From the NCBI RefSeq assembly GCF_016907925.1, contig NZ_JAFBCZ010000002.1, positions 186,001-250,000 on the forward strand: DNA of 64,000 nucleotides, given 5' to 3'. Below, in pieces: positions 49,725 through 64,000 of this stretch. Each line of letters starts with the position of its first letter. The stretch's first letter is position 1. Both the position numbers and the translations under genes were made by a program. The notes under the pieces are model-generated. The model saw nothing but the letters and a program-made list of their open reading frames with translations, made no database searches and was not told where the DNA came from. This DNA comes from Herpetosiphon giganteus. GTDB lineage: Bacteria; Chloroflexota; Chloroflexia; Chloroflexales; Herpetosiphonaceae.

Positions 49725-50435
49725 TTACAAGGGTTTTTTGGATGGTGTGCCAACCGTGCGTGGATAGGTCAATGGGGTCGCAGCTATTTTGTCGACGACG
49801 ACAAGTGAACGGACAGGTTCGGCTGGAATGTTGACATTATAGACCGCCCGTAATTGACCTCCAAGAATGGTTATGGCCTGTTCTGCATCTTGCACTTCAG
49901 GCTCAATTTCAAAGCCTTTTGGTGCAAGCCACATGCCACCGATTTTGCACAAGGGCAAACAGTATTCGGCGAGCGTTGCCAAATTGGCCACCGCGCGGGC
50001 GGTAACAACCTCAAAATGCTCGCGCCAACGCCGTTCGCGGCCAACAACTTCAGCGCGTTCAACTTCAACCAGCACATGGTCAAGCTGCAATTCTTGGGCC
50101 ACATGGCGCAAAAATTCGGCCTTCTTGCCAATTGATTCAATTAATAAGACTTCGGTTTCGGGCCACAAGATTGCCAAGGGAATGCCCGGTAAGCCTGCGC
50201 CAGAGCCAATATCGGCCAAGCTTGCTGGCGCTTGTTGGCAGGTTGTCGCCAGCGAAAATGAATCCAACAGGTGCCGCTTCGTTACTTCGGGCAAGGTCGA
50301 GGGCGCAACCAAATTCATGCGCTCGCTCCATTGGGTCAGTAACGTCACATACTGTTCAAGGCGGTCGATTTGGCTGGCGGAAAGGGTTAGTTCCCACTCA
50401 GCCAAGGTGGTTTGCAGTAGCTCACGATCAATCAT
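49725..50435 (-). CDS. rsmG: 16S rRNA (guanine-527-N7)-methyltransferase RsmG
   Basis: 236-residue SAM-dependent enzyme modifying G527 in the 530 loop of 16S rRNA. LADIGSGAGLPGIPLAI is motif I; VTARAVANLATLAEYCLP and LPLCKIGGMWLAPKG are family hallmarks. The start overlaps the stop of the upstream TPR/zinc-ribbon gene by 4 bases, so the two are coupled. The usual gidA/parA neighbours are absent. Confidence 0.96.
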   Translation of the reverse strand: MIDRELLQTTLAEWELTLSASQIDRLEQYVTLLTQWSERMNLVAPSTLPEVTKRHLLDSFSLATTCQQAPASLADIGSGAGLPGIPLAILWPETEVLLIESIGKKAEFLRHVAQELQLDHVLVEVERAEVVGRERRWREHFEVVTARAVANLATLAEYCLPLCKIGGMWLAPKGFEIEPEVQDAEQAITILGGQLRAVYNVNIPAEPVRSLVVVDKIAATPLTYPRTVGTPSKKPL

Positions 50436-51319
50436 TTTTGTTTTGATAACCTATAGTGCATTTCGGCTTGCTCGTATAAGCCTAGATTATCATAAACCCG
50501 CCCGATTGATGCATGCAGCTGTTGTGGGCGACGGCTGGTTGGTAGTGCTGCCTTCCATTGCTTCACCGCAGCGGCGGGAAAATCGCGGTCGCTATACATT
50601 TGGGCCAGACGTTCGCGATCAAGCTTGCGTTCAGGTGTCAGAAAATTTTCGAAGGAATGACCACATTCGCAAATCCAATTTTCGCGCACATCGAGCACAT
50701 GACCACAATTGGGGCAATCGAAGGTTTGTTCGGTGCCACAATTGCTACATTCGCCAGTGCTTTGGGTTGGCGTGCCACAAAATGCACAGGGGGCTTCGAG
50801 ATTTTGCGGTGGCTTAGGCACATTGCTGGTTGGGCTGTTCGCGACCGCGCTTGGCTCGGGGCTAACTTCAGCGACCATTGGTGCAAAGCCAAAGCCTGGT
50901 AGCGGCTGATCAAGCTCGATTGGCAGGGGTTGAAACATTTCCGCAGGTGGCTCATCGAAACTTGCTGGAGTGCTGATCACCGGAGCTGGCGCTGAAGCGA
51001 TTGGTGCTGGTGCTGGTGGCGGATTTGGCTCGGCTGGTGGCCGGTGTGGCTCGAAGGTCGAAAGAAAATCGGCTGCTTCGCTTTGGGCTAGCTCTTCGAG
51101 GCCGCGGCGAGCAGCAGTATTATCGGGATTGATTGAAAGCACAATTTGCAGACAGTCGCGTTTTTGGGTGCGCGTTTCGACAACGCCGCTGAGCCACAGC
51201 CAAGCGGACTCGTTTTTGGAATCTGTCAGGAGCACTTTTTGCAGATGCTGGCGAGCAAGCTCACGTTGGCCTGCGCGCACAGCAGCGATGCCTTTGGCAA
51301 GTTCATCATCGATTGTCAT
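50432..51319 (-). CDS. TPR and zinc-ribbon protein, paralogue 1
   Basis: 295 residues. The N-terminal 80 residues form TPR-like helices (GIAAVRAGQRELARQHLQKV), then a Pro/Ala-rich linker (about 85-170), a double zinc ribbon (CAFCGTPTQSTGECSNC and FDCPNCGHVLDVRENWICEC, near 178-222), and a C-terminal TPR-like pair ending YEQAEMHYRLSKQK. It is a paralogue of the next gene upstream. Function unknown; domain types suggest protein-protein scaffolding. Coupled to rsmG by ATGA. Confidence 0.8.
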   Translation of the reverse strand: MTIDDELAKGIAAVRAGQRELARQHLQKVLLTDSKNESAWLWLSGVVETRTQKRDCLQIVLSINPDNTAARRGLEELAQSEAADFLSTFEPHRPPAEPNPPPAPAPIASAPAPVISTPASFDEPPAEMFQPLPIELDQPLPGFGFAPMVAEVSPEPSAVANSPTSNVPKPPQNLEAPCAFCGTPTQSTGECSNCGTEQTFDCPNCGHVLDVRENWICECGHSFENFLTPERKLDRERLAQMYSDRDFPAAAVKQWKAALPTSRRPQQLHASIGRVYDNLGLYEQAEMHYRLSKQK

Positions 51320-51420: not shown

Positions 51421-52101
51421 TTAGGATTGGGCCACTTGGCGATGAAATTCGGCCTCTTGGTTGCGGCCAATCTTGTCGTAGGCTTGGGCCAATTTTCGGT
51501 GCAACATCACCACATGCGAGCCATCTTTGAGCGCGCGATCCCATTGGCGGGCGGCTGGCTCCCAGCGTTCCATCAAGGCATAGCGTTGGCCTAAGCCTTC
51601 GTGATCGATGCCATCGGGAAAGAAAATGTAGTGGCGTAAACCCTCGCCGCATGGGCAGCGGGTGGTTTCCCATAAGTTAATTGTACTATCACATGAGGGG
51701 CAGGTGAGAATCGTATTTTCGCCACAGACTTGGCAATCGAGCTTGCTACTATCAGTATCAGAATGACAGAATGGGCATTGAATCAATCTGCCATTACTGC
51801 TAGCAGCCATTGAGATGGGAGGAGTTGGCTCTGGCATGGGCGCAGGTTTGGTTTGCACTTCGAGGGCTGCGATGCCGCGTTGGGCTGCTTCGTTGCTGGG
51901 ATTGATCAACAAAACCCGCACGAGGCAATCGCGGCGTTGCTCTGGCGTATCAACAATTGCGCTCATCCAGAGCCACGCTAGTTCGTTTCGTGCATTGAGT
52001 GCTATCACTTGGGTCAGAAAATCACGGGCTGTTGCGCGTTGGCCTGCTTTGGCGGCAGTAATCCCTTCAGCCAATAAATGCGTTTCATGCACGGACGACA
52101 T
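51421..52101 (-). CDS. TPR and zinc-ribbon protein, paralogue 2
   Basis: 226 residues with the same plan as paralogue 1: TPR-like start (GITAAKAGQRATARDFLTQV, ALNARNELAWLWMSAIVDTP), short Pro-rich linker, double zinc ribbon (CPFCHSDTDSSKLDCQVC and LTCPSCDSTINLWETTRCPC), and C-terminal TPR-like helices ending NQEAEFHRQVAQS. The linker is much shorter than in paralogue 1. Start ATG 52101 after AAGGAG; 24 residues upstream are discounted. Lies between lipA and paralogue 1 on the same strand. Confidence 0.8.
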   Translation of the reverse strand: MSSVHETHLLAEGITAAKAGQRATARDFLTQVIALNARNELAWLWMSAIVDTPEQRRDCLVRVLLINPSNEAAQRGIAALEVQTKPAPMPEPTPPISMAASSNGRLIQCPFCHSDTDSSKLDCQVCGENTILTCPSCDSTINLWETTRCPCGEGLRHYIFFPDGIDHEGLGQRYALMERWEPAARQWDRALKDGSHVVMLHRKLAQAYDKIGRNQEAEFHRQVAQS

Positions 52102-52123
52102 AGGAACTCCTTCTATCGATAAT

Positions 52124-53044
52124 CTAGCGTGGTTCGAGTGCGATCCATTCTTGCACTGGGCTAGCCACGTCATTGCTTAATTGCTGATGGTGTAACTCCC
52201 CTGCGTGAAATGACGAGCGGATGAACGGCCCGGCAAAGGTGGCACGAAAGCCCAATTGCTGGCCATAGCTACGGTACAACTCATAACGCTCAGGGGGAAT
52301 ATATTCGCTGACCGCGACATGGGTCAACGATGGTTGTAAATATTGGCCAATCGTGACCAGCTCTACCCCAACCTGTTTGAGATCATCCATGGTTTGGTAG
52401 ATTTCGCTGGTTGTTTCGCCCAAACCCACCATAAACCCCGATTTGGTGCTAATCTGGGGGGCGAATTCACGACTGCGAGCCAATAAGGCTAATGATCGAT
52501 CGTAATCGCCTTGCGCGCGGACACTTTTAAAGACGCTGCGCACGGTTTCGATATTGTGATTGAGCACGTGTGGCTCAGCATCCAAAACTGTTTTGAGGGC
52601 ATCGGCATCGCCCTTGAAATCGGGAATCAAGACCTCGATTTCGGCCTCAGGCAAGCGTTGGCGAATGGCGTTGATGGTGCGGGCGAAGTGGCGTGCGCCA
52701 CCATCCTTCACATCATCGCGCGCCACGGCGGTTACCACCACATATTTTAAGCCCAAGCGTGCCGCAGCTTCAGCCACGTTATTTGGCTCACGTGGATCAA
52801 GCGGAAAGGGCTTGGCGGTGGTTACGTCACAATAATGACAACGCCGCGTACAGCGATCGCCGCCGATCATAAATGTGGCAGTGCCTTGGCCAAAACACTC
52901 GGCGATATTAGGACACGAGGCTTCTTCACACACAGTATTGAGATTGAGATCACGCAGCAGTTGGCGGACATTGCGCAACTCTGGTGAAAGCACGGGTTTG
53001 CGTAACCACTCTGGTTTACGCTGACGATGCGGTGTTGATGGCAT
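52124..53044 (-). CDS. lipA: Lipoyl synthase
   Basis: 306-residue radical-SAM enzyme inserting two sulfurs into octanoyl chains on E2 and H-protein domains. The auxiliary cluster motif CEEASCPNIAEC and the radical-SAM C-x3-C-x2-C (RCTRRCHYCDV) are intact, and the C-terminal RSSFHAG is present. GAGG stands 5 bases before the ATG. No lipB nearby. It is upstream of the TPR/zinc-ribbon pair and rsmG, with a 22-base gap to the first. Confidence 0.97.
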   Translation of the reverse strand: MPSTPHRQRKPEWLRKPVLSPELRNVRQLLRDLNLNTVCEEASCPNIAECFGQGTATFMIGGDRCTRRCHYCDVTTAKPFPLDPREPNNVAEAAARLGLKYVVVTAVARDDVKDGGARHFARTINAIRQRLPEAEIEVLIPDFKGDADALKTVLDAEPHVLNHNIETVRSVFKSVRAQGDYDRSLALLARSREFAPQISTKSGFMVGLGETTSEIYQTMDDLKQVGVELVTIGQYLQPSLTHVAVSEYIPPERYELYRSYGQQLGFRATFAGPFIRSSFHAGELHHQQLSNDVASPVQEWIALEPR

Positions 53045-53369: not shown

Positions 53370-54797
53370 ATGGCCAAACAACGTACAATTTTCGTGTGTC
53401 AACAATGTGATGCACAGTTTCCCCGTTGGATGGGCCGCTGTACCGAATGTGGCGCTTGGGATAGTTTGGTTGAACAAATTGTCACGAAGTCAGCAGGTAC
53501 GACAGGCGGTAGTACTCGTTCACCTATAGGAGTGAGCGAGCCATTACGCTTGCCGGATATTCAACTTGGCGATGTGCAACGTTTGCCAGTTCGTGGCAGT
53601 GAATTTGCTCGCGTGCTTGGCGGCGGGATTGTACCAGGCTCGTTGGTGCTGATTGGTGGCGACCCAGGCATTGGTAAATCGACCTTGCTGCTTGAACAAA
53701 GTGCTGCTTTGGCCGAAACCGCTGGCGATGTGCTGTATATTTCTGCTGAAGAATCGCAGCAACAAATTAAGTTGCGGGCTACGCGGCTTGGCTTAGCTGC
53801 CGAGCGTTTATATATTTTGGCCGAAACGAGCCTCGACACGGCGATTGCCACCATCGAACGCATGAAACCAGTCTTGGTGATTGTCGACTCAATTCAAACT
53901 GTGTATAGCGAAGATGTAACTTCGGCGGCGGGCAGCGTTTCGCAAGTGCGCGAAGGCGCGTTGCGGCTCCAGAGGGTGGCCAAGCAACACAATATTTCAA
54001 TTATGCTGGTTGGCCACGTCACCAAAGAAGGCGCGATTGCTGGACCACGGGTGCTTGAGCACATTGTTGATGTCGTGTTGTACCTTGAAGGTGAGCGCTT
54101 TCATCAATATCGTTTGTTGCGCAGCGTCAAAAATCGCTTTGGCTCCACCAATGAAGTTGGGGTCTTCGAGATGAATCAAGGTGGCATGGTCGAAGTTACC
54201 AATCCATCGCAGATTTTCTTGGCCGAGCGCAGCACCAACTCGCCTGGCTCGGCGGTGGCAGTGATGTTGGAGGGCACGCGTCCATTGTTATTGGAAGTGC
54301 AAGCCCTGACAAGTCATACCGCCAATGCGCAACCGCGGCGTACCGCCAATGGCTTTGACCAAAACCGGTTGGCGATGATTATTGCGGTGCTCTCAAAGCG
54401 GGTTGGTGTGCCATTGTTCAATCAGGATATTTATGTTAATGTGGTAGGCGGTTTGAAAGTGACCGAGCCAGCGATCGATCTTGCTGTCGCCACGGCGATT
54501 ACTTCATCATTTCGTAACCAGCGAGTTGAACCAAATACCGTCTTAATTGGTGAAATTGGGCTTTCGGGCGAATTGCGTTCGGTAAGCCAGCTTGATCGGC
54601 GTTTGAACGAGGCTGCCAAGCTTGGTTTTCATAATGCAATTGTGCCGCAGATCGATGCCTTACCGCAGATCGACGCGTTTCAGGTTACTGGCATTCGTTC
54701 ATTAGTTGAAGCAGTTCGTGCTGCTTTAATTGGTGCGCCGCGACCATCACCTGGTGAGCCGCCAACCGCGAAGGCAGCAACTGACCATGATGATTAA
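53370..54797 (+). CDS. radA: DNA repair protein RadA
   Basis: 475-residue RecA-related branch-migration ATPase. N-terminal zinc finger CQQCDAQFPRWMGRCTEC, Walker A GGDPGIGKSTLL near residue 91, the RadA-specific KNRFG motif in RSVKNRFGSTNEVGVF, and a C-terminal Lon-like domain (GGLKVTEPAIDLAVATAIT). Length is typical. First gene of a co-directional run (radA, PIN-TRAM, dtd and onward). Confidence 0.97.
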   Translation: MAKQRTIFVCQQCDAQFPRWMGRCTECGAWDSLVEQIVTKSAGTTGGSTRSPIGVSEPLRLPDIQLGDVQRLPVRGSEFARVLGGGIVPGSLVLIGGDPGIGKSTLLLEQSAALAETAGDVLYISAEESQQQIKLRATRLGLAAERLYILAETSLDTAIATIERMKPVLVIVDSIQTVYSEDVTSAAGSVSQVREGALRLQRVAKQHNISIMLVGHVTKEGAIAGPRVLEHIVDVVLYLEGERFHQYRLLRSVKNRFGSTNEVGVFEMNQGGMVEVTNPSQIFLAERSTNSPGSAVAVMLEGTRPLLLEVQALTSHTANAQPRRTANGFDQNRLAMIIAVLSKRVGVPLFNQDIYVNVVGGLKVTEPAIDLAVATAITSSFRNQRVEPNTVLIGEIGLSGELRSVSQLDRRLNEAAKLGFHNAIVPQIDALPQIDAFQVTGIRSLVEAVRAALIGAPRPSPGEPPTAKAATDHDD

Positions 54798-54830
54798 GCG
54801 TAAATTGTGGATGTGCTCACGAGGAGATTT

Positions 54831-55982
54831 ATGACGATTTCGGAAAAAAAGCCTGTCAACAGAAATCGCTTACTTAGCATTGATTTTTGGATTCGAATTT
54901 TAGGCATGATCGTGTTGGGCTATGTTGGTTGGTATTTTAGCTCACGTTCCGCTAGCAATCCCGCTACCGAAGATGAAATTTTAGCAATGCAATTGCTCAC
55001 CCTTTCGGGGGCTGGCTTGGGCTTGTTAATTACCCATCGCATGATCTTATACCCCATTCGCAATGTGAATCAACGCTTGCGTAAGAGTAGCGCTCAAGAA
55101 TTGATAGCTTTGGGCTTGGGCACGCTCTTGGGCGTAGTAATTGGCGCATTATTATCGATTCCACTGAGCAATTTGCCTGGGTTACTCGGCAATTATTTGC
55201 CAGCAATTGCTAGTTTTTTGGCAATCTACTTTTGTGTGCTAGGTTTTGACTATCAAAAGAAAAACTTGGCTAACTTTAGCGTTTCGTTGCAAACTGCCAA
55301 AGCGCGTCCGGTTAAAGAAGCTGTGCCAATGCGCCGCACCTGTTTGGTTGATACCAGCGCGATTATCGATGGCCGGGTCTTGGCGGTTGTGCGCAGTGGC
55401 TTTCTTGATGGCATTTTAGTGGTGCCACGTTTTGTCTTGAATGAATTGCAGCTGTTGGCCGATTCGAGCGATGATATGAAGCGTATGCGTGGTCGACGTG
55501 GCCTCGATATGCTCGAAGAAATTCGCAAAGATGACCAATTGCGGCTTGAAATGCCCAACGAAGATATTGCCAATGCACGTGGAGTTGACCAAAAATTGGT
55601 CACTTTGGCCTTGCAAGATGGCCATGCCTTGATTACCAACGACAAAAACTTGAGCCAAGTTGCCGAATTGCAAGGCGTGCAGGTGCTCAATTTAAATGTG
55701 CTTTCCGATGCGGTGCGCCCACCAGTTGGCGCTGGCGAAATGTTGGTCGTGAAAGTGCGTGAAGAGGGCCGCGAGCGCGAACAAGGCATTGGCTATCTCG
55801 AAGATGGCACAATGGTTGTGGTCGAAGATGCGCGCGAACGGATTGGCGATGAAGTGCGGGTGATCGTCAGTCGGGTTTGGACTAACGATCGGGGCCGCAT
55901 GGTCTTTGGTCGCATCATGGGCAGTGCTGGGGCATTTTACGGGGGCAAAAACGATGCGGGCAATTATCCAGCGCGTAGCTAG
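54831..55982 (+). CDS. Membrane-anchored PIN-TRAM domain protein
   Basis: 383 residues. Four membrane helices in the first 140 residues are followed by a PIN nuclease-type domain ([20 protein letters not shown], conserved Asp residues also in ADSSDD and LITNDKNL) and a C-terminal TRAM RNA-binding domain ([20 protein letters not shown]). The architecture matches the YacL family. ATG 54831 after GAGGAG. Its 3' end overlaps dtd by 29 bases. Often found near radA in bacteria. Confidence 0.92.
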
Positions 55983-56415
55983 TGCCAGCGTCACCGTTGC
56001 CGAGCAGATGGTTGGCCAGATTAACGCTGGCCTTTTGGTGCTGCTGGCAGTTAGCCCCAGCGATAGTACTGACGATTTGCGCAAGCTGGCTGATAAAATC
56101 CTCAATTTGCGGATCTTCCCCGATGATCAAGATCGCTTTGATCGTTCGTTAATCGATTGTCACGGCGAATTATTGGTGGTTTCGCAATTTACACTTTACG
56201 CTGATACCCGCAAAGGCCGCCGCCCATCGTTTGTTGGCGCAGCAGCGCCAGCCTTGGCTGAGCCGATGGTCGAGCAGTTTATTGCCTATTGTCGTGAGCA
56301 AGGTATTACAACCGCCAGCGGCCAATTTGGCGCGGCAATGCAGGTGCACCTGATCAACGACGGGCCGGTGACGATTATTTTGGATACAGCGGAGTGGCAG
56401 CATGGCCGAGGCTGA
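55954..56415 (+). CDS. dtd: D-aminoacyl-tRNA deacylase
   Basis: 153-residue enzyme that removes D-amino acids mischarged on tRNA. Start ATG 55954 ([20 protein letters not shown]), so it overlaps the PIN-TRAM gene by 29 bases; a further 16 in-frame residues upstream are discounted. [19 protein letters not shown] carries the active-site SQFTL, and [11 protein letters not shown] replaces the usual NxGPVT with Asn-Asp. Also overlaps the next small gene by 14 bases. Confidence 0.95.
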
Positions 56416-56659
56416 TGAGGCAGAGCAGGTTTTGGTTCAATTGGCGCAAAGCCTGCATCGCCATCGGCTCAACGGCGTAGCCCAATTGTTCCTGCGATCG
56501 GGCCATGTTGCCAGCATTGTTTTGAGCCAGCTGTGTTTATTTGGCCAAGCATTTGTGCCCAGCCCGCTACGACAGAGGCTCGCAAGCTATGCCAATGCCT
56601 TAGAAACAGAGGCTAGTTGGCAACGCTTAATTGAGCATCTGAATGCCCTAGAAAGTTGA
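56402..56659 (+). CDS. Small helical protein of unknown function
   Basis: 85 residues, predicted all-alpha, with no motif recognised ([20 protein letters not shown] at the start, [10 protein letters not shown] at the end). It overlaps dtd by 14 bases and ends 86 bases before the DUF6754-like gene, so it belongs to the same transcript. Short and unmatched, so moderate confidence. Confidence 0.55.
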
Positions 56660-56745: not shown

Positions 56746-57540
56746 GTGTCTCCTTTTGAGATTCTTGTCGTGTCACTCATCTTAACCCTAGCAATTGCCT
56801 TGCCCTTTGTGTATGCACGGCTAGTTACTGGTGGACGTAAGATCAACCGCCGCCCTCTTCCCCCAATTGACCTGATCAATAGCGCTTTGGCGCGGGCTGC
56901 TGAAACTGGCCAGCCAATTCACGTTTCGCCTGGCAGTGGCTCGCTTGATGGCTCAACAATCAACCCAGAAACTTTAGCTGGTTTGGTTTTGGCCCAGCGC
57001 ATCACCGACATTGCAGCGCGGCGTGGAGCGGGTATTTCGGCCTCAAGCGGCGATCCAATTGCCCATTTGGCGCTACGCGGCACGGTTCGGCGCGCCTATC
57101 GCGATGCTGGCTACAGCGAAGATTATCGGCCCGAACTGATTCAAATGCTGGCCGCAAATGATCCAATTGCCTTTTCAGTTGGCTTAAGTAATCGCGTTAC
57201 CAGCGAACCAATGGAAGCCAGCATTACGGTTGGCTCATTTGAACAAGGTTACTTGTTGTTTGCCGAGCCAGGCCGCGCCAATAATATTTTGCAAATTGCT
57301 GGCACGACTGATCAGCAAGCCCTAACCGCAGCCTTGCTTACTGCCAATGGCACGTTGTTGGGTGAGGAAATCTATGCCGCCGAGGCCTATATTGCCCCAA
57401 CACCATTGGGCTTTGCTCGCATCTTAACCCATGATGTCCTGCGTTCGGTCATTATTGGGATCATTATTTTTGGAATCATTTTGGTTTCTTTAGGCCAATT
57501 AGCAATCTTGCCACAAGATTTTCCATTGCTGCCTAGATAA
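56746..57540 (+). CDS. DUF6754-like membrane protein
   Basis: 264 residues with an N-terminal membrane helix (about 4-24), a soluble region of about 190 residues with conserved-looking PETLAGLVLAQRITDIAARR and GRANNILQIAGTTDQQALTA, and a second membrane helix near the C-terminus (about 234-255). I associate it with DUF6754, seen in Chloroflexota, but this rests on memory of the pattern. GTG start. First member of the membrane cluster that runs to the window end. Confidence 0.7.
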   Translation: MSPFEILVVSLILTLAIALPFVYARLVTGGRKINRRPLPPIDLINSALARAAETGQPIHVSPGSGSLDGSTINPETLAGLVLAQRITDIAARRGAGISASSGDPIAHLALRGTVRRAYRDAGYSEDYRPELIQMLAANDPIAFSVGLSNRVTSEPMEASITVGSFEQGYLLFAEPGRANNILQIAGTTDQQALTAALLTANGTLLGEEIYAAEAYIAPTPLGFARILTHDVLRSVIIGIIIFGIILVSLGQLAILPQDFPLLPR

Positions 57541-57552
57541 AGGATGGGTGGG

Positions 57553-58218
57553 ATGCGTCGAATTGACCTGCTCCGCAATCCAAAGCGCTTAATTCCTATT
57601 TTGATCGGCAGCGTTGCCGGTATTTTCGTTTTAATTGATCGGCTTTTTCCTGGGATTGGCAGTATTGCCAATGGTAGCCAAATTTTGCTCAATTGGGCAA
57701 CGGTAATTGCTGCCTTTGCATTAATTGCTGGTTCAACCAATGTTATTATTCATCATATTAAACGCTTAGCCTCAACCGATCCCAAACGCTGGTATAGCAT
57801 TGCCTTGCTGTTGGGGGTAATTATTCCGCCTGCCTTAGCCGTGTATGGCTATAGCACCCAAGGCCGCGCCAATGTCTTGGAACTTGGTTTGTTTCAAGAT
57901 GTGATCCGCTGGGTCTATGCCCCAATCAGCATTAGCCTCTTGGCGTTGCTGACATTTTTTGGTTTAACTGCGGCGATTCATGCCTTTGGGGCTGGCCAAC
58001 GCGAAGCTATTATTGTGGTGAGCGTTGCCTTGCTCTTTCTGGTGTTGCAATTGCCAGTGCTGGCTGGGCTGCCCTATTTGGGCGAAAGCTTGGGCTGGAT
58101 TCAACGCTACATTGTGATGGCTGGCCTGCGCGGCCTCATCTTTGGGTCGGCAATTGGCGCTATCGTTGCCAGTATTCGCATCTTACTTGGGATTGACCTC
58201 CCATATTTGGATCGCTAG
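57553..58218 (+). CDS. Polytopic membrane protein of unknown function
   Basis: 221 residues with about six membrane helices. RRIDLLRNPKRLIPILIGSV opens with a basic cytoplasmic tail, and the remainder alternates helices and short loops (AIHAFGAGQREAIIVVSVAL). ATG 57553 is 9 bases after AAAGG; an earlier ATG at 57544 sits inside the ribosome-binding region. Lies 12 bases after the DUF6754-like gene and 12 before the large repeat protein, so all three are co-transcribed. Confidence 0.75.
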   Translation: MRRIDLLRNPKRLIPILIGSVAGIFVLIDRLFPGIGSIANGSQILLNWATVIAAFALIAGSTNVIIHHIKRLASTDPKRWYSIALLLGVIIPPALAVYGYSTQGRANVLELGLFQDVIRWVYAPISISLLALLTFFGLTAAIHAFGAGQREAIIVVSVALLFLVLQLPVLAGLPYLGESLGWIQRYIVMAGLRGLIFGSAIGAIVASIRILLGIDLPYLDR

Positions 58219-58230
58219 GAGGCGGCCTCA

Positions 58231-61200
58231 ATGAATTGTCCTCGCTGTGGCACGCCCAATACTCCTGATCGCCAATTTTGTAGCCAATGTCAAGCACCTT
58301 TGGCCGTCGCGCCAACTGCTAGCAACGATTTACCGCCTTGGCTTCAGGATCTTGATCAACAACAAACCGTTGTGCCAGCCAAACGTGGCACGTCGAGCCT
58401 CCCACCGTGGTTGCAAGAAGATAGCCCTGCGCCACCAGCCGCTCCAAGTGCCGAAGCAATTCCTGCTTGGTTGCAAGAGTCGGCTGCGCCACCACCAGCC
58501 CAAAACGCTGCTCCTGCTAATAGCGAGGAGCTTCCGCCATGGCTGCGCGATTTGCAGGCAACTACACCCGCAATTCCAGCTGATGAGCCATTGCCAGCAA
58601 CGCCAAGTCCTGAGCAACCATTGCCAAATTGGCTCTCAGATCTCCAAGCGCCTTCGAATGCTCCCGCGGCTCCAGCGCCAGCAGCGAGCAACGATATTCC
58701 GTCGTGGTTGCAAGGCACAGTTGAATCGGCTCCGGCAGCAGCGCCAACGCCAGCGGCAAGTAATGATATTCCATCGTGGTTGCAAGGTACAGTTGAATCG
58801 GCTCCGTCAGCAGCGCCAACGCCAGCAGCAAGCAACGATATTCCATCGTGGTTGCAAGGCACAGTTGAATCGGCTCCGGCAGCAGCGCCAACGCCAGCGG
58901 CGAGCAACGATATTCCATCGTGGTTGCAAGGCACAGTTGAATCGGCTCCGGCAGCAGCGCCAACGCCAGCGGCAAGTAATGATATTCCGTCGTGGTTGCA
59001 AGGTACAGTTGAATCAGCTCCGCCAGCAGCACCAACGCCAGCAGCAAGTGCTGATGAAGAACCAATGCCCGCATGGTTGCAGCAATTACGCCCGAGCGAG
59101 CCTGCACCGCCGCCAAGTATTGCATCATTTGCTGAAGATAACGATGAACCAGTTATTGCACGCCGCGCCGGAACAGGCAATTTGCCCGATTGGCTTAAAG
59201 ATTTTGATACCGAGCCACCAGTTGTCCAACTATCTGATGTCGATTTAAATGCTGCTGGCCCAAGCGATGATGTTCCACCTTGGCTAAAACCAGCAACAGC
59301 ACCATTGAATACACCTTCACCAGCAGCATCGCCGGCAATGAATGCGGGCGATGATGTGCCGGCGTGGTTACGCGGCGACTTGGCTGATGCAGCGCCAACG
59401 GCTCCAGCCGCAAGTGCGGGCGACGTACCCTCGTGGTTACAAGCGGATGCTCCGGCAGCACCACCAGCCGCAGGTGCGGGCGATGATGTGCCGGCGTGGT
59501 TACGCGGCGATTTGGCTGATGCAGCGCCAACGGCTCCAGCAGCGAGCGGCGATGTGCCGTCGTGGATGCAAGCCGATGCTCCGGTAGCGTCACCAGCACC
59601 GCAGGCAGCAAGTGCGGGCGATGATGTGCCCGCGTGGTTACGCGGCGATTTGGCTGATGCAGCGCCAACGGCTCCAGTAGCGAGCGCGGATGTGCCGTCG
59701 TGGATGCAAGCGGATGCTCCGGCAGCGTCACCAGCACCGCAGGCAGCAAGTGCGGGCGATGATGTGCCGGCGTGGTTACGCGGCGATTTGGCTGATGCAG
59801 CGCCAACGGCTCCAGCAGCGAGCAGCGACGTGCCGTCGTGGTTACAAGCCGATGCTCCGGCAACGCCACCAGCGGCAAGTGCGGGCGATGATGTGCCGGC
59901 GTGGTTGCGCGGCGATTTGGCTGATGCAGCGCCAACGGCTCCAGCAGCGAGCGGCGATGTGCCGTCGTGGTTACAAGCGGATGCTCCGGCAGCGCCACCA
60001 ACACCAGCCGCAAGTGCGGGCGATGATGTGCCGGCGTGGTTGCGAGGCGATCTGGCTGATGTGCCACCAACGGCTCCGGCAGCAAGCAGCGATGTGCCAG
60101 CATGGATGCAGGCCGATGCTCCGGCAGCGCCACCAGCGGCAAGTGCGGGCGATGATGTGCCGGCGTGGTTGCGCGGCGATTTGGCTGATGCAGCGCCAAC
60201 GGCTCCAACAGCGAGCGGCGATGTGCCAGCATGGATGCAGGCCGATGCTCCGGCAGCGCCACCAACACCAGCCGCAAGTGCGGGCGATGATGTGCCAGCG
60301 TGGTTACGCGGCGATTTGAGTGATGTGCCCCAAGCAAGTCCGACGGTCAAACTTGAGAGCACGGAGCAGGATGTGCCGGCGTGGTTACGCGGCGACTTGG
60401 CTGATGTGCCACCAACGGCTCCAGCAGCAAGCAGCGATGTGCCATCGTGGATGCAGGCCGATGCTCCGGCAACACCACCAGCGCCAGCGGCAAGTGCGGG
60501 CGATGATGTGCCGGCGTGGTTGCGCGGCGATTTGGCTGATGCAGCGCCAACGCCACCAGCAGCGAGCGGCGATGTGCCAGCATGGATGCAGGCCGATGCT
60601 CCGGCAACGCCACCAACACCAGCGGCAAGTGCGGGCGATGATGTGCCGGCGTGGTTGCGCGGCGATTTGGCTGATGCAGCGCCAACGCCACCAGCAGCAA
60701 GCGGCGATGTGCCAGCATGGATGCAGGCCGATGCTCCGGCAACGCCACCAACACCAGCGGCAAGTGCGGGCGATGATGTGCCAGCGTGGTTACGCGGCGA
60801 TCTGGCTGATGCAGCGCCAACGGCTCCAGCAGCGAGCGGCGATGTGCCATCGTGGATGCAGGCCGATGCTCCGGCAACGCCACCAGCAGCAAATGCGGGC
60901 GATGATGTGCCGGCGTGGTTACGCGGCGACTTGGCTGATGTTCCCCAAGCAAGTCCGACGGTCAAACTTGAGAGCACGGAGCAGGATGTACCGGCGTGGC
61001 TGCAAGCTGATTTGAATGCAGCGCCACCAGCAAGCGGCGATGTTCCGTCGTGGTTGCAGGCCGATGTTGCAGACCTACCGCCTGTGAATCCAACTATCAA
61101 ACTTGACTCAAATGAGCAAGATCCGAATGTGCCTGCTTGGCTCAATGATCTTGAAACACCGCCTGCGGCTGCACCAACTGATTCGCTCAATTGGATGCAT

Positions 61201-62757
61201 GAAGAAGCGCCAACCGTCAAGCTTGATAATCAAGCAGCAGGCTTGCCAACTTGGCTGCAAGAGGATCTGCCAACCGTTCGGTTGGATAGCGCTGCTAGCA
61301 ATGTACCTGCTTGGTTGCAAGACGATGTAACGCCGATCGTTCCACCAACCAAGGCTGAGCCGAGCATTCCGCAAACGCCCAGCGCAAAGGCTGAAGCTGC
61401 AAATGTGCCTGCTTGGTTGCGCGATGATTTAGATATTGAGATTCCTGCTACGCCAGCAACTGCTGCGCCAAGTATTCCTGGCAACACACCTTCGTGGCTA
61501 TTGGATGATGAGCCAGCTCAATCTGCGCAAGATGATGGTTTGTTGGGTAGTGTTGATTTGCCTGCTTGGTTGCGTCAGACAGGTAAGCAAGAAGAATCAA
61601 CTCCTGTTGTTGAGCCAGATGCGGCTCCAACTATCGCTGAATCAGCCGATTGGCTACGAGTCTTAGGTGAGCCTGAGCCTGTGGTTGCGGCAAACGCTGC
61701 AACAACTGGCCGCTTGCTCGATCAAGCTCCGCCTGCCTTGCTGAACCGAACTCCTGAGCGGGTTTCGGCCATGCACTTGCTGCAAGATTTGGTTACGAAG
61801 CCACTGCCCGAGCCAGCTGAAGCACCAATTGTTGCAACACCGCCATGGTGGCAACGCATTGGCACTCAGCGAATTGTGGCAATCTTGATGTTGCTCAGCT
61901 TGGTTGTTGGGCTGCTCGTGCCGAATCTGCTTGCGATCAATACGCAAGCCTTGACGATTGGCGGTAATACCAGCGATCTCTACAATTATGTTGAAACGCT
62001 CAACCCCGAAAGCCGCGTGCTAATTGCCTATGAAGGCGATTTACGCCATAACGCCGAGTTGGGGCCACTCGAACAATCAATCGCCCAACATTTGATCGAT
62101 CGCAAAGTGCCAATGCTGTTGCTTTCGACCGATACTGAAGGCAGCTTGCTTGCGAGCCAACGGGCCGCCCAATTTCCAATCATCGATCCAACGACAGGCT
62201 ACACTGGCGAAGGTGCCGAATATTTGAATCTTGGTTGGGTCAAAGGCAACGAAGTTGGGATTGCGCAGCTTGGCAGTAATTTGCGCGGTACAATTGCCAA
62301 TCTTTTGCAAAATCGCGAAGGTGCTGACGTTAATTTGTTGCGCATTATGTCGAAGCTCAATTCGAATAATCAGCTTGATCGACCGCGCATTACCACCACC
62401 AGAGATCTTGATCTGTTGATTGTGGTTGCTGATGAGCCAAGCGATGTTCAGCGCTGGATGGAACAATTCTGGTCACGTGAACCATCTTTGCCTGTGGCAA
62501 TTTTAACCACAAACGAAGTTTTGCCTCAAATTCAACCTTATGTTGATGTTAACGTCAACGGCAACCAAGCGGCGATTTATACTGCTGCTGGTTTAGTTGG
62601 CGAGCAGCAGTATACGGCGCTGCGTTCGATCGACACGACGAGTAATGGCTCGATCAACGCACTGAGTTTGGGCATGATCACCACGATTCTGGTGGTGCTG
62701 GTGGGCGGGGTGCTTCAGTTGCAACGGCGTATCCGTGGAAAGAGGAATAGCTTGTGA
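58231..62757 (+). CDS. Giant zinc-ribbon protein with Pro-x-Trp-Leu repeat arrays and a membrane C-terminus
   Basis: 1508 residues. An N-terminal zinc ribbon (MNCPRCGTPNTPDRQFCSQC) leads to about 1,180 residues of Ala/Pro/Asp-rich, presumably disordered sequence with a recurrent Pro-x-Trp-Leu/Met word. It includes a five-unit 24-residue array (IPSWLQGTVES) and 13 copies of VPAWLRGDL alternating with VPSWMQADAP. A membrane helix lies near 1214-1236, a folded domain of about 240 residues follows (SRVLIAYEGDLRHNAELG), and a second helix near 1475-1497 ends in a basic tail. AGGAGG precedes the ATG. The repeat is likely a multivalent docking scaffold; partner unknown. Confidence 0.85.
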   Translation: MNCPRCGTPNTPDRQFCSQCQAPLAVAPTASNDLPPWLQDLDQQQTVVPAKRGTSSLPPWLQEDSPAPPAAPSAEAIPAWLQESAAPPPAQNAAPANSEELPPWLRDLQATTPAIPADEPLPATPSPEQPLPNWLSDLQAPSNAPAAPAPAASNDIPSWLQGTVESAPAAAPTPAASNDIPSWLQGTVESAPSAAPTPAASNDIPSWLQGTVESAPAAAPTPAASNDIPSWLQGTVESAPAAAPTPAASNDIPSWLQGTVESAPPAAPTPAASADEEPMPAWLQQLRPSEPAPPPSIASFAEDNDEPVIARRAGTGNLPDWLKDFDTEPPVVQLSDVDLNAAGPSDDVPPWLKPATAPLNTPSPAASPAMNAGDDVPAWLRGDLADAAPTAPAASAGDVPSWLQADAPAAPPAAGAGDDVPAWLRGDLADAAPTAPAASGDVPSWMQADAPVASPAPQAASAGDDVPAWLRGDLADAAPTAPVASADVPSWMQADAPAASPAPQAASAGDDVPAWLRGDLADAAPTAPAASSDVPSWLQADAPATPPAASAGDDVPAWLRGDLADAAPTAPAASGDVPSWLQADAPAAPPTPAASAGDDVPAWLRGDLADVPPTAPAASSDVPAWMQADAPAAPPAASAGDDVPAWLRGDLADAAPTAPTASGDVPAWMQADAPAAPPTPAASAGDDVPAWLRGDLSDVPQASPTVKLESTEQDVPAWLRGDLADVPPTAPAASSDVPSWMQADAPATPPAPAASAGDDVPAWLRGDLADAAPTPPAASGDVPAWMQADAPATPPTPAASAGDDVPAWLRGDLADAAPTPPAASGDVPAWMQADAPATPPTPAASAGDDVPAWLRGDLADAAPTAPAASGDVPSWMQADAPATPPAANAGDDVPAWLRGDLADVPQASPTVKLESTEQDVPAWLQADLNAAPPASGDVPSWLQADVADLPPVNPTIKLDSNEQDPNVPAWLNDLETPPAAAPTDSLNWMHEEAPTVKLDNQAAGLPTWLQEDLPTVRLDSAASNVPAWLQDDVTPIVPPTKAEPSIPQTPSAKAEAANVPAWLRDDLDIEIPATPATAAPSIPGNTPSWLLDDEPAQSAQDDGLLGSVDLPAWLRQTGKQEESTPVVEPDAAPTIAESADWLRVLGEPEPVVAANAATTGRLLDQAPPALLNRTPERVSAMHLLQDLVTKPLPEPAEAPIVATPPWWQRIGTQRIVAILMLLSLVVGLLVPNLLAINTQALTIGGNTSDLYNYVETLNPESRVLIAYEGDLRHNAELGPLEQSIAQHLIDRKVPMLLLSTDTEGSLLASQRAAQFPIIDPTTGYTGEGAEYLNLGWVKGNEVGIAQLGSNLRGTIANLLQNREGADVNLLRIMSKLNSNNQLDRPRITTTRDLDLLIVVADEPSDVQRWMEQFWSREPSLPVAILTTNEVLPQIQPYVDVNVNGNQAAIYTAAGLVGEQQYTALRSIDTTSNGSINALSLGMITTILVVLVGGVLQLQRRIRGKRNSL
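58681..59040 (+). repeat. Five-unit 72-bp tandem repeat in the scaffold gene
   Basis: Five in-frame units of 72 bases, each coding AASNDIPSWLQGTVES plus APAAAPTP with minor changes (Ala to Ser or Pro). They differ from one another at a few third positions, which points to recent duplication or ongoing homogenisation. Confidence 0.92.
59350..60990 (+). repeat. Long 129-138-bp repeat array in the scaffold gene
   Basis: Thirteen AWLRGDL units alternate with PSWMQADAP or PAWMQADAP units in an imperfect period of 129-138 bases. Two shorter units carry SPTVKLESTEQ instead. Some neighbouring units (near 60540 and 60670) are almost identical in DNA, so copy number is probably unstable. Confidence 0.9.
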
Positions 62758-63419
62758 CAACGCTTGGCCCTTGGATCGCCTTTGGCTTGACATTAATTGT
62801 GCTCAGCCGGGCATTTGGCGAAAATCCACTCTTTCGCTTCAGCCAATATTTGTTTGTTGGTTTGGCGCTTGGCTATACCCTAACTGTGGTCGTTACAACC
62901 GTGTTTATCGTGCCAAGCGGCGATATGATCGATAATCCCGATAGCGTTGGCACAGCCTTGTTTATTGTGCCAGTGCTGGTTGGGTTGCTCTTGTTGACCC
63001 GTTTGCGCACCCAACAGCTTTCGTGGCTGGCCAACGTGCCATTGGCGCTGTTGTTTGGGGTTGCCGCCGCAATTGCGATTGCTGGCACCATTCTCGGTAC
63101 ATTGCTGCCCCAATTACAATCATCGTTCTTCTCGGTTACGAGTTTTACCGATGGCAGCAGTTTAGCCGTAGCCCTTGGCAAACTTGTGTTGGTGATTGGG
63201 GTTGTCTTGGTCTTGCTGTCGTTTCGCTTTAGCAAGGCCGCAACGCCAGAAGCCGCTGATCATAGCGAAACACTCAAACCAAGCGTGGTGGCAAAAGTCG
63301 GTCGGATGTGGCTCTTGCTAAGTTTGGGGGCGGTCTTTGCCGCTACGTTGATCACCTATCAATCAGCCTTGATTGATCGAATCCAGTTTTTGCTGCGGCA
63401 AATAGGCGTGATCTCTTAG
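62754..63419 (+). CDS. Polytopic membrane protein of unknown function
   Basis: 221 residues with about six membrane helices, starting TTLGPWIAFGLTLIVLSRAF and ending IDRIQFLLRQIGVIS. GTG at 62754 overlaps the scaffold gene's stop by 4 bases, after GAGGAA. Similar in size and helix count to the 57553 protein, but I see no clear sequence kinship. Likely a partner of the scaffold protein. Confidence 0.75.
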   Translation: MTTLGPWIAFGLTLIVLSRAFGENPLFRFSQYLFVGLALGYTLTVVVTTVFIVPSGDMIDNPDSVGTALFIVPVLVGLLLLTRLRTQQLSWLANVPLALLFGVAAAIAIAGTILGTLLPQLQSSFFSVTSFTDGSSLAVALGKLVLVIGVVLVLLSFRFSKAATPEAADHSETLKPSVVAKVGRMWLLLSLGAVFAATLITYQSALIDRIQFLLRQIGVIS

Positions 63420-63438
63420 GGGTTGCGAAAGGATTGAT

Positions 63439-64000
63439 ATGACGACCGCTGATCCTGCTGCACTGCTTGTCGTTGATATTGGCACGTTGTTTACCCATGT
63501 GGCGTTGCTCGAATTGGTTGCTGGCGAGTATCGCTTGTTGGGTCGTGCCCAAGCACTCTCAACCTTAGAGCCACCAATTGCCGATGCTTGGCAAGGAATT
63601 TTGACCGCAATTCGCGAAATTGAGCAACTGACCTTTCGCGCGATTGCCCATGTTGATGGTTTGATGACTCCGCATCGCCCTGATGGCTCGGGCGTTGATG
63701 GCATGGTGGTCAGCACTAGCGCCGCCGGAACCTTGCCGATTGTGCTGGCGGCGATTTCGAATGATACCACTGGCGCTAGTTTGCGGCGGGTGGCCCGTTC
63801 GAGCTATACCACCGTGCTCGATATGGTGACGCTCGATGAATATGGCGACCCCGATTTGGCCGAAGGCGAAAGCTGGATTGACTATCAATTAGCCAATTTG
63901 GTGCGCTTGCCAGCTGCCACGGTCTTGATGGCTGGCGGCATCGATGGCGGCAACTCCGCGCCGCTTGAGCGTTTGGCCCACATGCTTGGCTTTACCGTGT
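63439..64000 (+). CDS. MutL/GlmL-like ASKHA-family protein, 3'-truncated by window edge
   Basis: 187 residues visible from ATG 63439 (AAAGGA 6 bases upstream); the frame stays open to the end of the window. LLVVDIGTLFTHVALLELV is an actin-like ATP-binding motif, and VLMAGGIDGGNSAPLERL resembles the phosphate-2 loop. The pattern is that of the glutamate mutase L/MutL family, best known as a gene near adenosylcobalamin-dependent mutases, but no mutase subunit is seen here. The placement after the membrane genes suggests a different role. Family call rests on motif recognition. Confidence 0.72.
   Translation, partial: MTTADPAALLVVDIGTLFTHVALLELVAGEYRLLGRAQALSTLEPPIADAWQGILTAIREIEQLTFRAIAHVDGLMTPHRPDGSGVDGMVVSTSAAGTLPIVLAAISNDTTGASLRRVARSSYTTVLDMVTLDEYGDPDLAEGESWIDYQLANLVRLPAATVLMAGGIDGGNSAPLERLAHMLGFTV

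Follow-up and report, generated by a model that had tools for sequence, protein, structure and literature searches.

What does an ATPase of the MutL type, a family whose members carry the name "glutamate mutase L", do at the end of a cluster of membrane proteins? This question is raised by the window analysed here, a stretch of 64,000 nucleotides (G000:C2:186001-250000) from the genome of Herpetosiphon giganteus, a member of the Chloroflexota with a 100% complete assembly of 6.16 Mb. The initial annotation had described five packed genes in one direction and proposed an envelope or secretion-type complex particular to Chloroflexota. Using a sample of 301 genomes spread over the phylum, we find that the genes Z, A, B, C, D and E form a real, conserved and undescribed operon-like membrane-associated system, to which c0, a protein of about 350 residues encoded next to E in other lineages, can be added as a partner.

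Gene layout and conservation of the cluster

All five open reading frames of the initial annotation (A to E) were confirmed on the plus strand as described, with spacings of 3, 12, -4 and 19 bases (A-B, B-C, C-D and D-E; Table 1). The unit is larger than these five genes, as the small gene Z upstream of A belongs to it and had been overlooked. An HMM built from 11 relatives located Z homologues at 59 loci. Almost all of these have Z immediately before A, while L137, L146 and L160, three loci outside Chloroflexota or without a phylum name, have it immediately before E. E is complete at 726 aa, with its stop about 1.6 kb beyond the end of the window. Only A (PF20539) and E (PF13941) passed a Pfam cut-off once a SAM_3 score on C is set aside, which we rejected as an artefact because none of its stretches is significant alone and the best one falls inside the repeats. 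Z, B, D, c0 and the membrane domain of C match no family in Pfam or NCBIfam. The promoter scan was uninformative (6 promoter-like sites against 5.7 expected), and terminator-like sites were rarer than expected.

Table 1. Features of the cluster in window coordinates.
Feature	Position	Strand	Basis
Z: small protein of 85 aa, first gene of the conserved unit	56402..56659	+	HMM; no Pfam/NCBIfam family
A: DUF6754 protein, TM - Rossmann/DHS-like domain - TM (predicted)	56746..57540	+	PF20539, AlphaFold, charge
B: six-TM protein, own family	57544..58218	+	alignment, six TM segments
C: scaffold of 1508 aa; zinc ribbon, PxWL array, TM, predicted extracytoplasmic alpha/beta domain, TM, basic tail	58231..62757	+	
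PxWL array of C: 44 [LIVM]PxW[LM] words	58330..61572	+	pattern count vs shuffles
Membrane part of C: TM, conserved domain, TM, basic C-terminus	61861..62757	+	hydropathy, conservation in 20 relatives
D: 5-6 TM protein, own family; 4-base overlap with C	62754..63419	+	TM segments; found in 69/301 genomes
E: putative actin-fold PF13941 MutL-like ATPase, 726 aa	63439..64000, on to C2:251619 (L002:9619)	+	Pfam

The genome is near-identical in this region to Herpetosiphon species, E being 99% identical to its homologues in H. llansteffanensis and H. geysericola. In Herpetosiphonaceae the cluster is preceded by genes of RadA, PIN-TRAM and D-Tyr-tRNA deacylase type as judged by eye (window 53370-56415), the last of which overlaps Z by 14 bases, and part of this neighbourhood recurs in some other Chloroflexia loci. 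Further upstream, two neighbouring and apparently duplicated genes (window 50432-51319 and 51421-52173 (-)) encode proteins that begin with a TPR-like part and have cysteines clustered much as in a zinc ribbon. Following the contig past position 64,000, as the initial annotation had proposed, leads directly after E into genes for a DUF11/LPXTG-like protein, a Wzz-tyrosine kinase (BY-kinase), a DUF4012-TPR protein and a flippase (L002:9878-16885), an exopolysaccharide-type cluster seen in this position only in Herpetosiphonaceae; no mutase gene follows E.

Profile searches found PF20539 in 66 and PF13941 in 157 of the 301 genomes. In 52 of the 66 genomes with A, E is found 2.2-6.3 kb downstream of it in the same orientation; most of the remaining genomes have both genes close to contig ends, frequently just beyond repetitive C. 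With families derived from the genes of the window, the order A-B-C-D-E was recovered in loci of distant classes and families, and it was also seen in Chloroflexus, Roseiflexus, Oscillochloris, Chloroploca and many Anaerolineae MAGs, with median gaps of 3 (A-B), 12 (B-C), -4 (C-D), 18 (D-E) and 3 bases (E-c0). This comparison across the phylum bears out the earlier view of an undescribed, strongly syntenic system. Neither of the findings that the initial annotation had named as refuting it, missing synteny in related genomes and mutase subunits downstream, was made. D was detected in 69 genomes, always together with E (69/69) and in 65 of the 66 genomes that have A, and A, B, C and D are for this reason best viewed as one membrane module. 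The further claim that the system is particular to Chloroflexota stands for this module as far as sampled; it does not hold for E and c0, which together with Z in some cases also occur in Armatimonadota, Poribacteria and Eisenbacteria.

The putative ATPase E and its partner c0

E clearly exceeds the cut-off of the MutL family PF13941 (173.7 vs 27 bits, E-value 7.6e-51) and stays far below those of the GlmL models (NF040745, 50.4 vs 475; TIGR01319, 16.6 vs 204). By inspection of the alignment consensus it keeps the phosphate-1, phosphate-2 and adenosine motifs DIGxxxT, DxGxxT and GGxL, and by these motifs it qualifies as a putative actin-fold (ASKHA) ATPase. It shares this domain with GlmL, from which it differs by an additional C-terminal domain with the motif IDARGRPL and by its membrane-cluster context without mutase genes. 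Glutamate mutase E (PF06368) gave only a sub-threshold match in the window genome, on another contig, and is over cut-off in just 4 of the 301 genomes, the E of the cluster being present in 181. One genome (G176) carries both types at different loci: a MutL of 530 bits at a distance of 152 bases from glmE (C1:1242388-1245214), and E within an A-B-C-E-c0 cluster near C1:757238. With no qualifying mutase, failed GlmL cut-offs and both types at separate loci of one genome, we rejected E as a companion of glutamate mutase. The earlier statement that MutL proteins are known only in that role is an artefact of naming: E represents a branch of its own within the PF13941 family, distinct from true GlmL, and to call it "glutamate mutase L" misleads. 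Our tree of E is a quick version from which three GlmL rows were left out, and it serves for the broad split between Chloroflexota and other phyla only. An apparent mutase-MutL fusion of 1264 residues, whose N-terminal part resembles cobalamin-binding/mutase domains by eye, was observed in another genome (L075:4233-8027, G184:C45) that also has a D homologue elsewhere.

In Chloroflexales E carries a disordered-looking C-terminal extension of 60-180 residues. A basic-aromatic, KRGFFRRK-like end closes 31 of 41 such extended tails, against 10 among 1587 other proteins, a count that includes two minimal scaffolds (see below); short E proteins lack it. The tail in the window genome contains two PxWL words and ends with KPKRGFFRRK, which presumably resembles the membrane-targeting sequence of MinD, and PxWL words were also found in the E tails of other Herpetosiphonaceae and of locus L113. 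The only solved structure that E matched by sequence was PilM (E-value 0.033, not significant). Like FtsA and PilM, E has the actin fold, and its attachment to the membrane seems to come from partners and, in Chloroflexales, perhaps from the basic-aromatic tail; in contrast to them, no FtsZ- or PilN-type partner is found in the cluster, the PilM match is not significant, and we do not claim membership.

Outside Chloroflexales c0 follows E directly in 24 loci (median gap 3 bases), and in the window genome it is encoded alone on another contig (C5:18837-19979). Both occur together in 166 of the 301 genomes (E in 181, c0 in 179; Fisher p 3e-49, which like the other co-occurrence p-values ignores shared ancestry). 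Furthermore, 17 of the 18 genomes with E outside Chloroflexota or without a phylum name (Armatimonadota, Poribacteria, Eisenbacteria, Gemmatimonadota and others) also have c0, which adjoins E in Eisenbacteria. From this co-occurrence within and beyond Chloroflexota it follows that E and c0 are the ancient core. As they are found without adjacent A-D in Armatimonadota and Poribacteria, this core can work without the membrane module.

In its predicted structure (mean pLDDT 88.7), c0 has a KOW domain at the C-terminus in addition to a barrel-sandwich hybrid and a swivelling domain of beta/beta/alpha type. Read as statements about the fold only, the best matches are UPF0107 for the swivelling domain (Z-score 10.9 over 111 residues, 2.4 A), with RraA and the pyruvate-kinase C domain being similar, and SPT5 KOW5 for the KOW domain (50 residues, 1.2 A, 42% identity). 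The model thus combines the folds of the NqrA/RnfC barrel-sandwich, RraA/UPF0107 swivelling and NusG/SPT5 KOW domains; it differs from all of these families in that the sequence matches are sub-threshold or restricted to single domains, and neither Pfam nor NCBIfam has a family for all three together. Among solved structures a sequence search found KOW and BSH pieces only. A plasmid-borne module was rejected, as c0 had no match among 72,556 plasmids. Concerning its neighbourhood, c0 is directly followed by genes of response regulator and/or histidine kinase type in the window genome (contig C5, L084:9838-12656) and at loci of other Chloroflexales and some Armatimonadota (L175, L177, L188 and L191 between these two groups), an association that spans otherwise unlike contexts. 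In several Anaerolineae-type loci (L053, L056, L059, L060, L120 and L142) it is followed by a protein of 150-220 aa with an N-terminal TM segment, a low-complexity stalk and an LPxTG-like C-terminal anchor.

The scaffold C and the membrane proteins

In C the 44 words lie between residues 34 and 1114 (0.12 expected from shuffles), mostly spaced by 20-30 residues and typically by about 22-24. Counted over all loci, the C family has 13.4 of these words per 1000 aa, whereas proteins encoded nearby reach 0.12, a figure to which minimal scaffolds contribute, and 32 of the 39 genome-wide matches to a DNA pattern for D[VIL]PxW fall inside C. The PxWL words are a speciality of C and of the E tails. Hydropathy places two C-terminal TM segments at about residues 1211-1233 and 1473-1498, in agreement with the zinc-ribbon scaffold with multivalent words and a membrane C-terminus that the initial annotation had seen. 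The zinc ribbon itself reached only a sub-threshold Pfam score and is not universal in C, as an N-terminal CxxC-CxxC ribbon is present in 37 of 69 long C proteins.

Shorter forms of the scaffold also exist. In loci L067-L080, which might be Ktedonobacteria-like and have no A, B or D beside E, a shorter gene before E encodes a zinc ribbon and PxWL words and has lost the TM-domain-TM part. These minimal scaffolds have mostly amphipathic or basic-aromatic ends such as RGFIETIRSWFSH, KRGWRRIFGR and RGWRGFFRRGE. The scaffold of L189 combines a double zinc ribbon and PxWL words with a single C-terminal TM segment. From these forms it follows that the recurring features are the zinc ribbon, the PxWL words and some kind of membrane anchor.

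A is a full-length member of DUF6754 (PF20539, 115.3 vs 27 bits, E-value 3.5e-33), so that the profile searches suggested by the initial annotation confirmed both A and E as family members. We know of no described function for DUF6754, and the open-access literature searched contained no paper naming DUF6754, PF20539 or PF13941. The AlphaFold model of A (pLDDT 89.4) matches Sir2 (Z-score about 10.7) and transhydrogenase dIII (9.6), again a statement about the fold only. Since Foldseek gave no match below 1e-3 against the pdb and the VIA list is generically Rossmann-like, we do not claim an enzyme; solved structures were not found by sequence either (best E-value 0.3). The domain between the TM segments contains 17 K/R and, judged from this charge, is probably located in the cytosol. 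D had been described as a second six-helix protein, which is true for many relatives, while five clear TM segments are present in the window genome. That B and D are duplicates of each other was rejected, as profile comparison shows no relation.

A possible membrane-associated complex and its alternatives

The observed gene order, co-occurrence, domains, words and anchors suggest to us, as a tentative model with somewhat less than an even chance of being correct, that Z, A, B, C, D and E together with the unlinked c0 form one membrane-associated complex in which the PxWL scaffold brings E and c0 to the membrane's inner face. The ancient core would be the actin-fold ATPase E and the soluble BSH-swivel-KOW protein c0. 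In Chloroflexota, C would be a zinc-ribbon scaffold that lies in the cytoplasm with its C-terminus anchored in the membrane, and its many PxWL words may be repeated docking sites that concentrate E, and c0 with it, beside A, B and D. The receptor of the words would most likely be E or c0 because both persist when A, B and D are missing, although it need not be either of them. As the tail of E in Chloroflexales carries PxWL words and/or a membrane-targeting-like end, E could enter the docked layer by itself. Binding or hydrolysis of ATP by E might switch the assembly or its activity, and the role of the complex would most likely be to build or position something at the cell envelope, be it the division site, a pole or a surface structure. 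The KOW domain of c0, commoner in transcription and translation proteins, does not obviously fit such an envelope role.

We also weighed other readings. E, with c0 as its partner, could be an ATP-dependent reactivase or chaperone for a cofactor enzyme whose gene lies elsewhere, and A-D would then be its membrane client or dock. E shares PF13941 with GlmL, which like EutA and DdrA we take to be such a reactivase or chaperone, and c0 offers an NqrA/RnfC-like barrel-sandwich hybrid plus a swivelling domain; however, no client gene is kept beside E-c0 across phyla, E scores 50 against the GlmL cut-off of 475, and the few genomes with a qualifying glutamate mutase E do not include that of the window, which makes this reading unlikely in our view. 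We give a similarly low chance to a system for cell division, polarity or filament organisation in which E acts like FtsA or PilM at the membrane. The actin fold, the weak PilM match and the basic-aromatic tails of Chloroflexales, which resemble the MinD and FtsA membrane-targeting sequences, would fit such a function, as would the mostly filamentous growth of the Chloroflexales, but the PilM match is not significant and an unsystematic reading of the neighbours at the inspected loci revealed no link to fts, mre or pil genes.

A machine exporting protein or glycan through the envelope appears quite improbable. Two polytopic proteins, the predicted extracytoplasmic domain of C, the LPXTG-like anchored small proteins right after c0 and the exopolysaccharide-type genes after E would all be in line with it, yet the last are confined to Herpetosiphonaceae, and none of the cluster's proteins matched a family of secretion ATPases, secretins, pilins or translocases in Pfam or NCBIfam searches. 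The proposed "secretion-type complex" lacks positive evidence; B, D and the membrane part of C match no known family in these searches, though remote homology to secretion components is conceivable. Least probable to us is a membrane sensor or signalling hub in which the scaffold would relay the binding of a nucleotide or NAD by the Rossmann/DHS-like domain of A: the A model does resemble nucleotide-binding folds and kinase genes do follow c0 in the window genome and in the lineages mentioned above, but Z-scores of 9-10.7 are common among Rossmann-like folds, an intact nucleotide motif was not established, and the kinase neighbours are not universal. A known anti-phage defence system was rejected, with no PADLOC match for Z, A, B, the membrane part of C, D, E or c0.

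Returning to the proposed docked complex, we call the cluster new because it matches no system described so far, and its function, once found, could place it near a known one. In evolutionary terms, we see a nearly even chance that it represents an ancient, unrecognised cell-biology system of several phyla, consisting of E and a near-obligate c0, and that in Chloroflexota this system became a membrane machine through the addition of the PxWL scaffold and three membrane proteins. With E-c0 in more than half of the sampled Chloroflexota genomes and the membrane module strictly co-inherited in about a fifth, a basic process is likely to be involved, in a phylum about whose cell biology and envelope formation little is understood. 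The cluster would also give a context to the proteins misnamed "glutamate mutase L" and to DUF6754, and C would offer a tractable scaffold with multivalent short motifs in bacteria.
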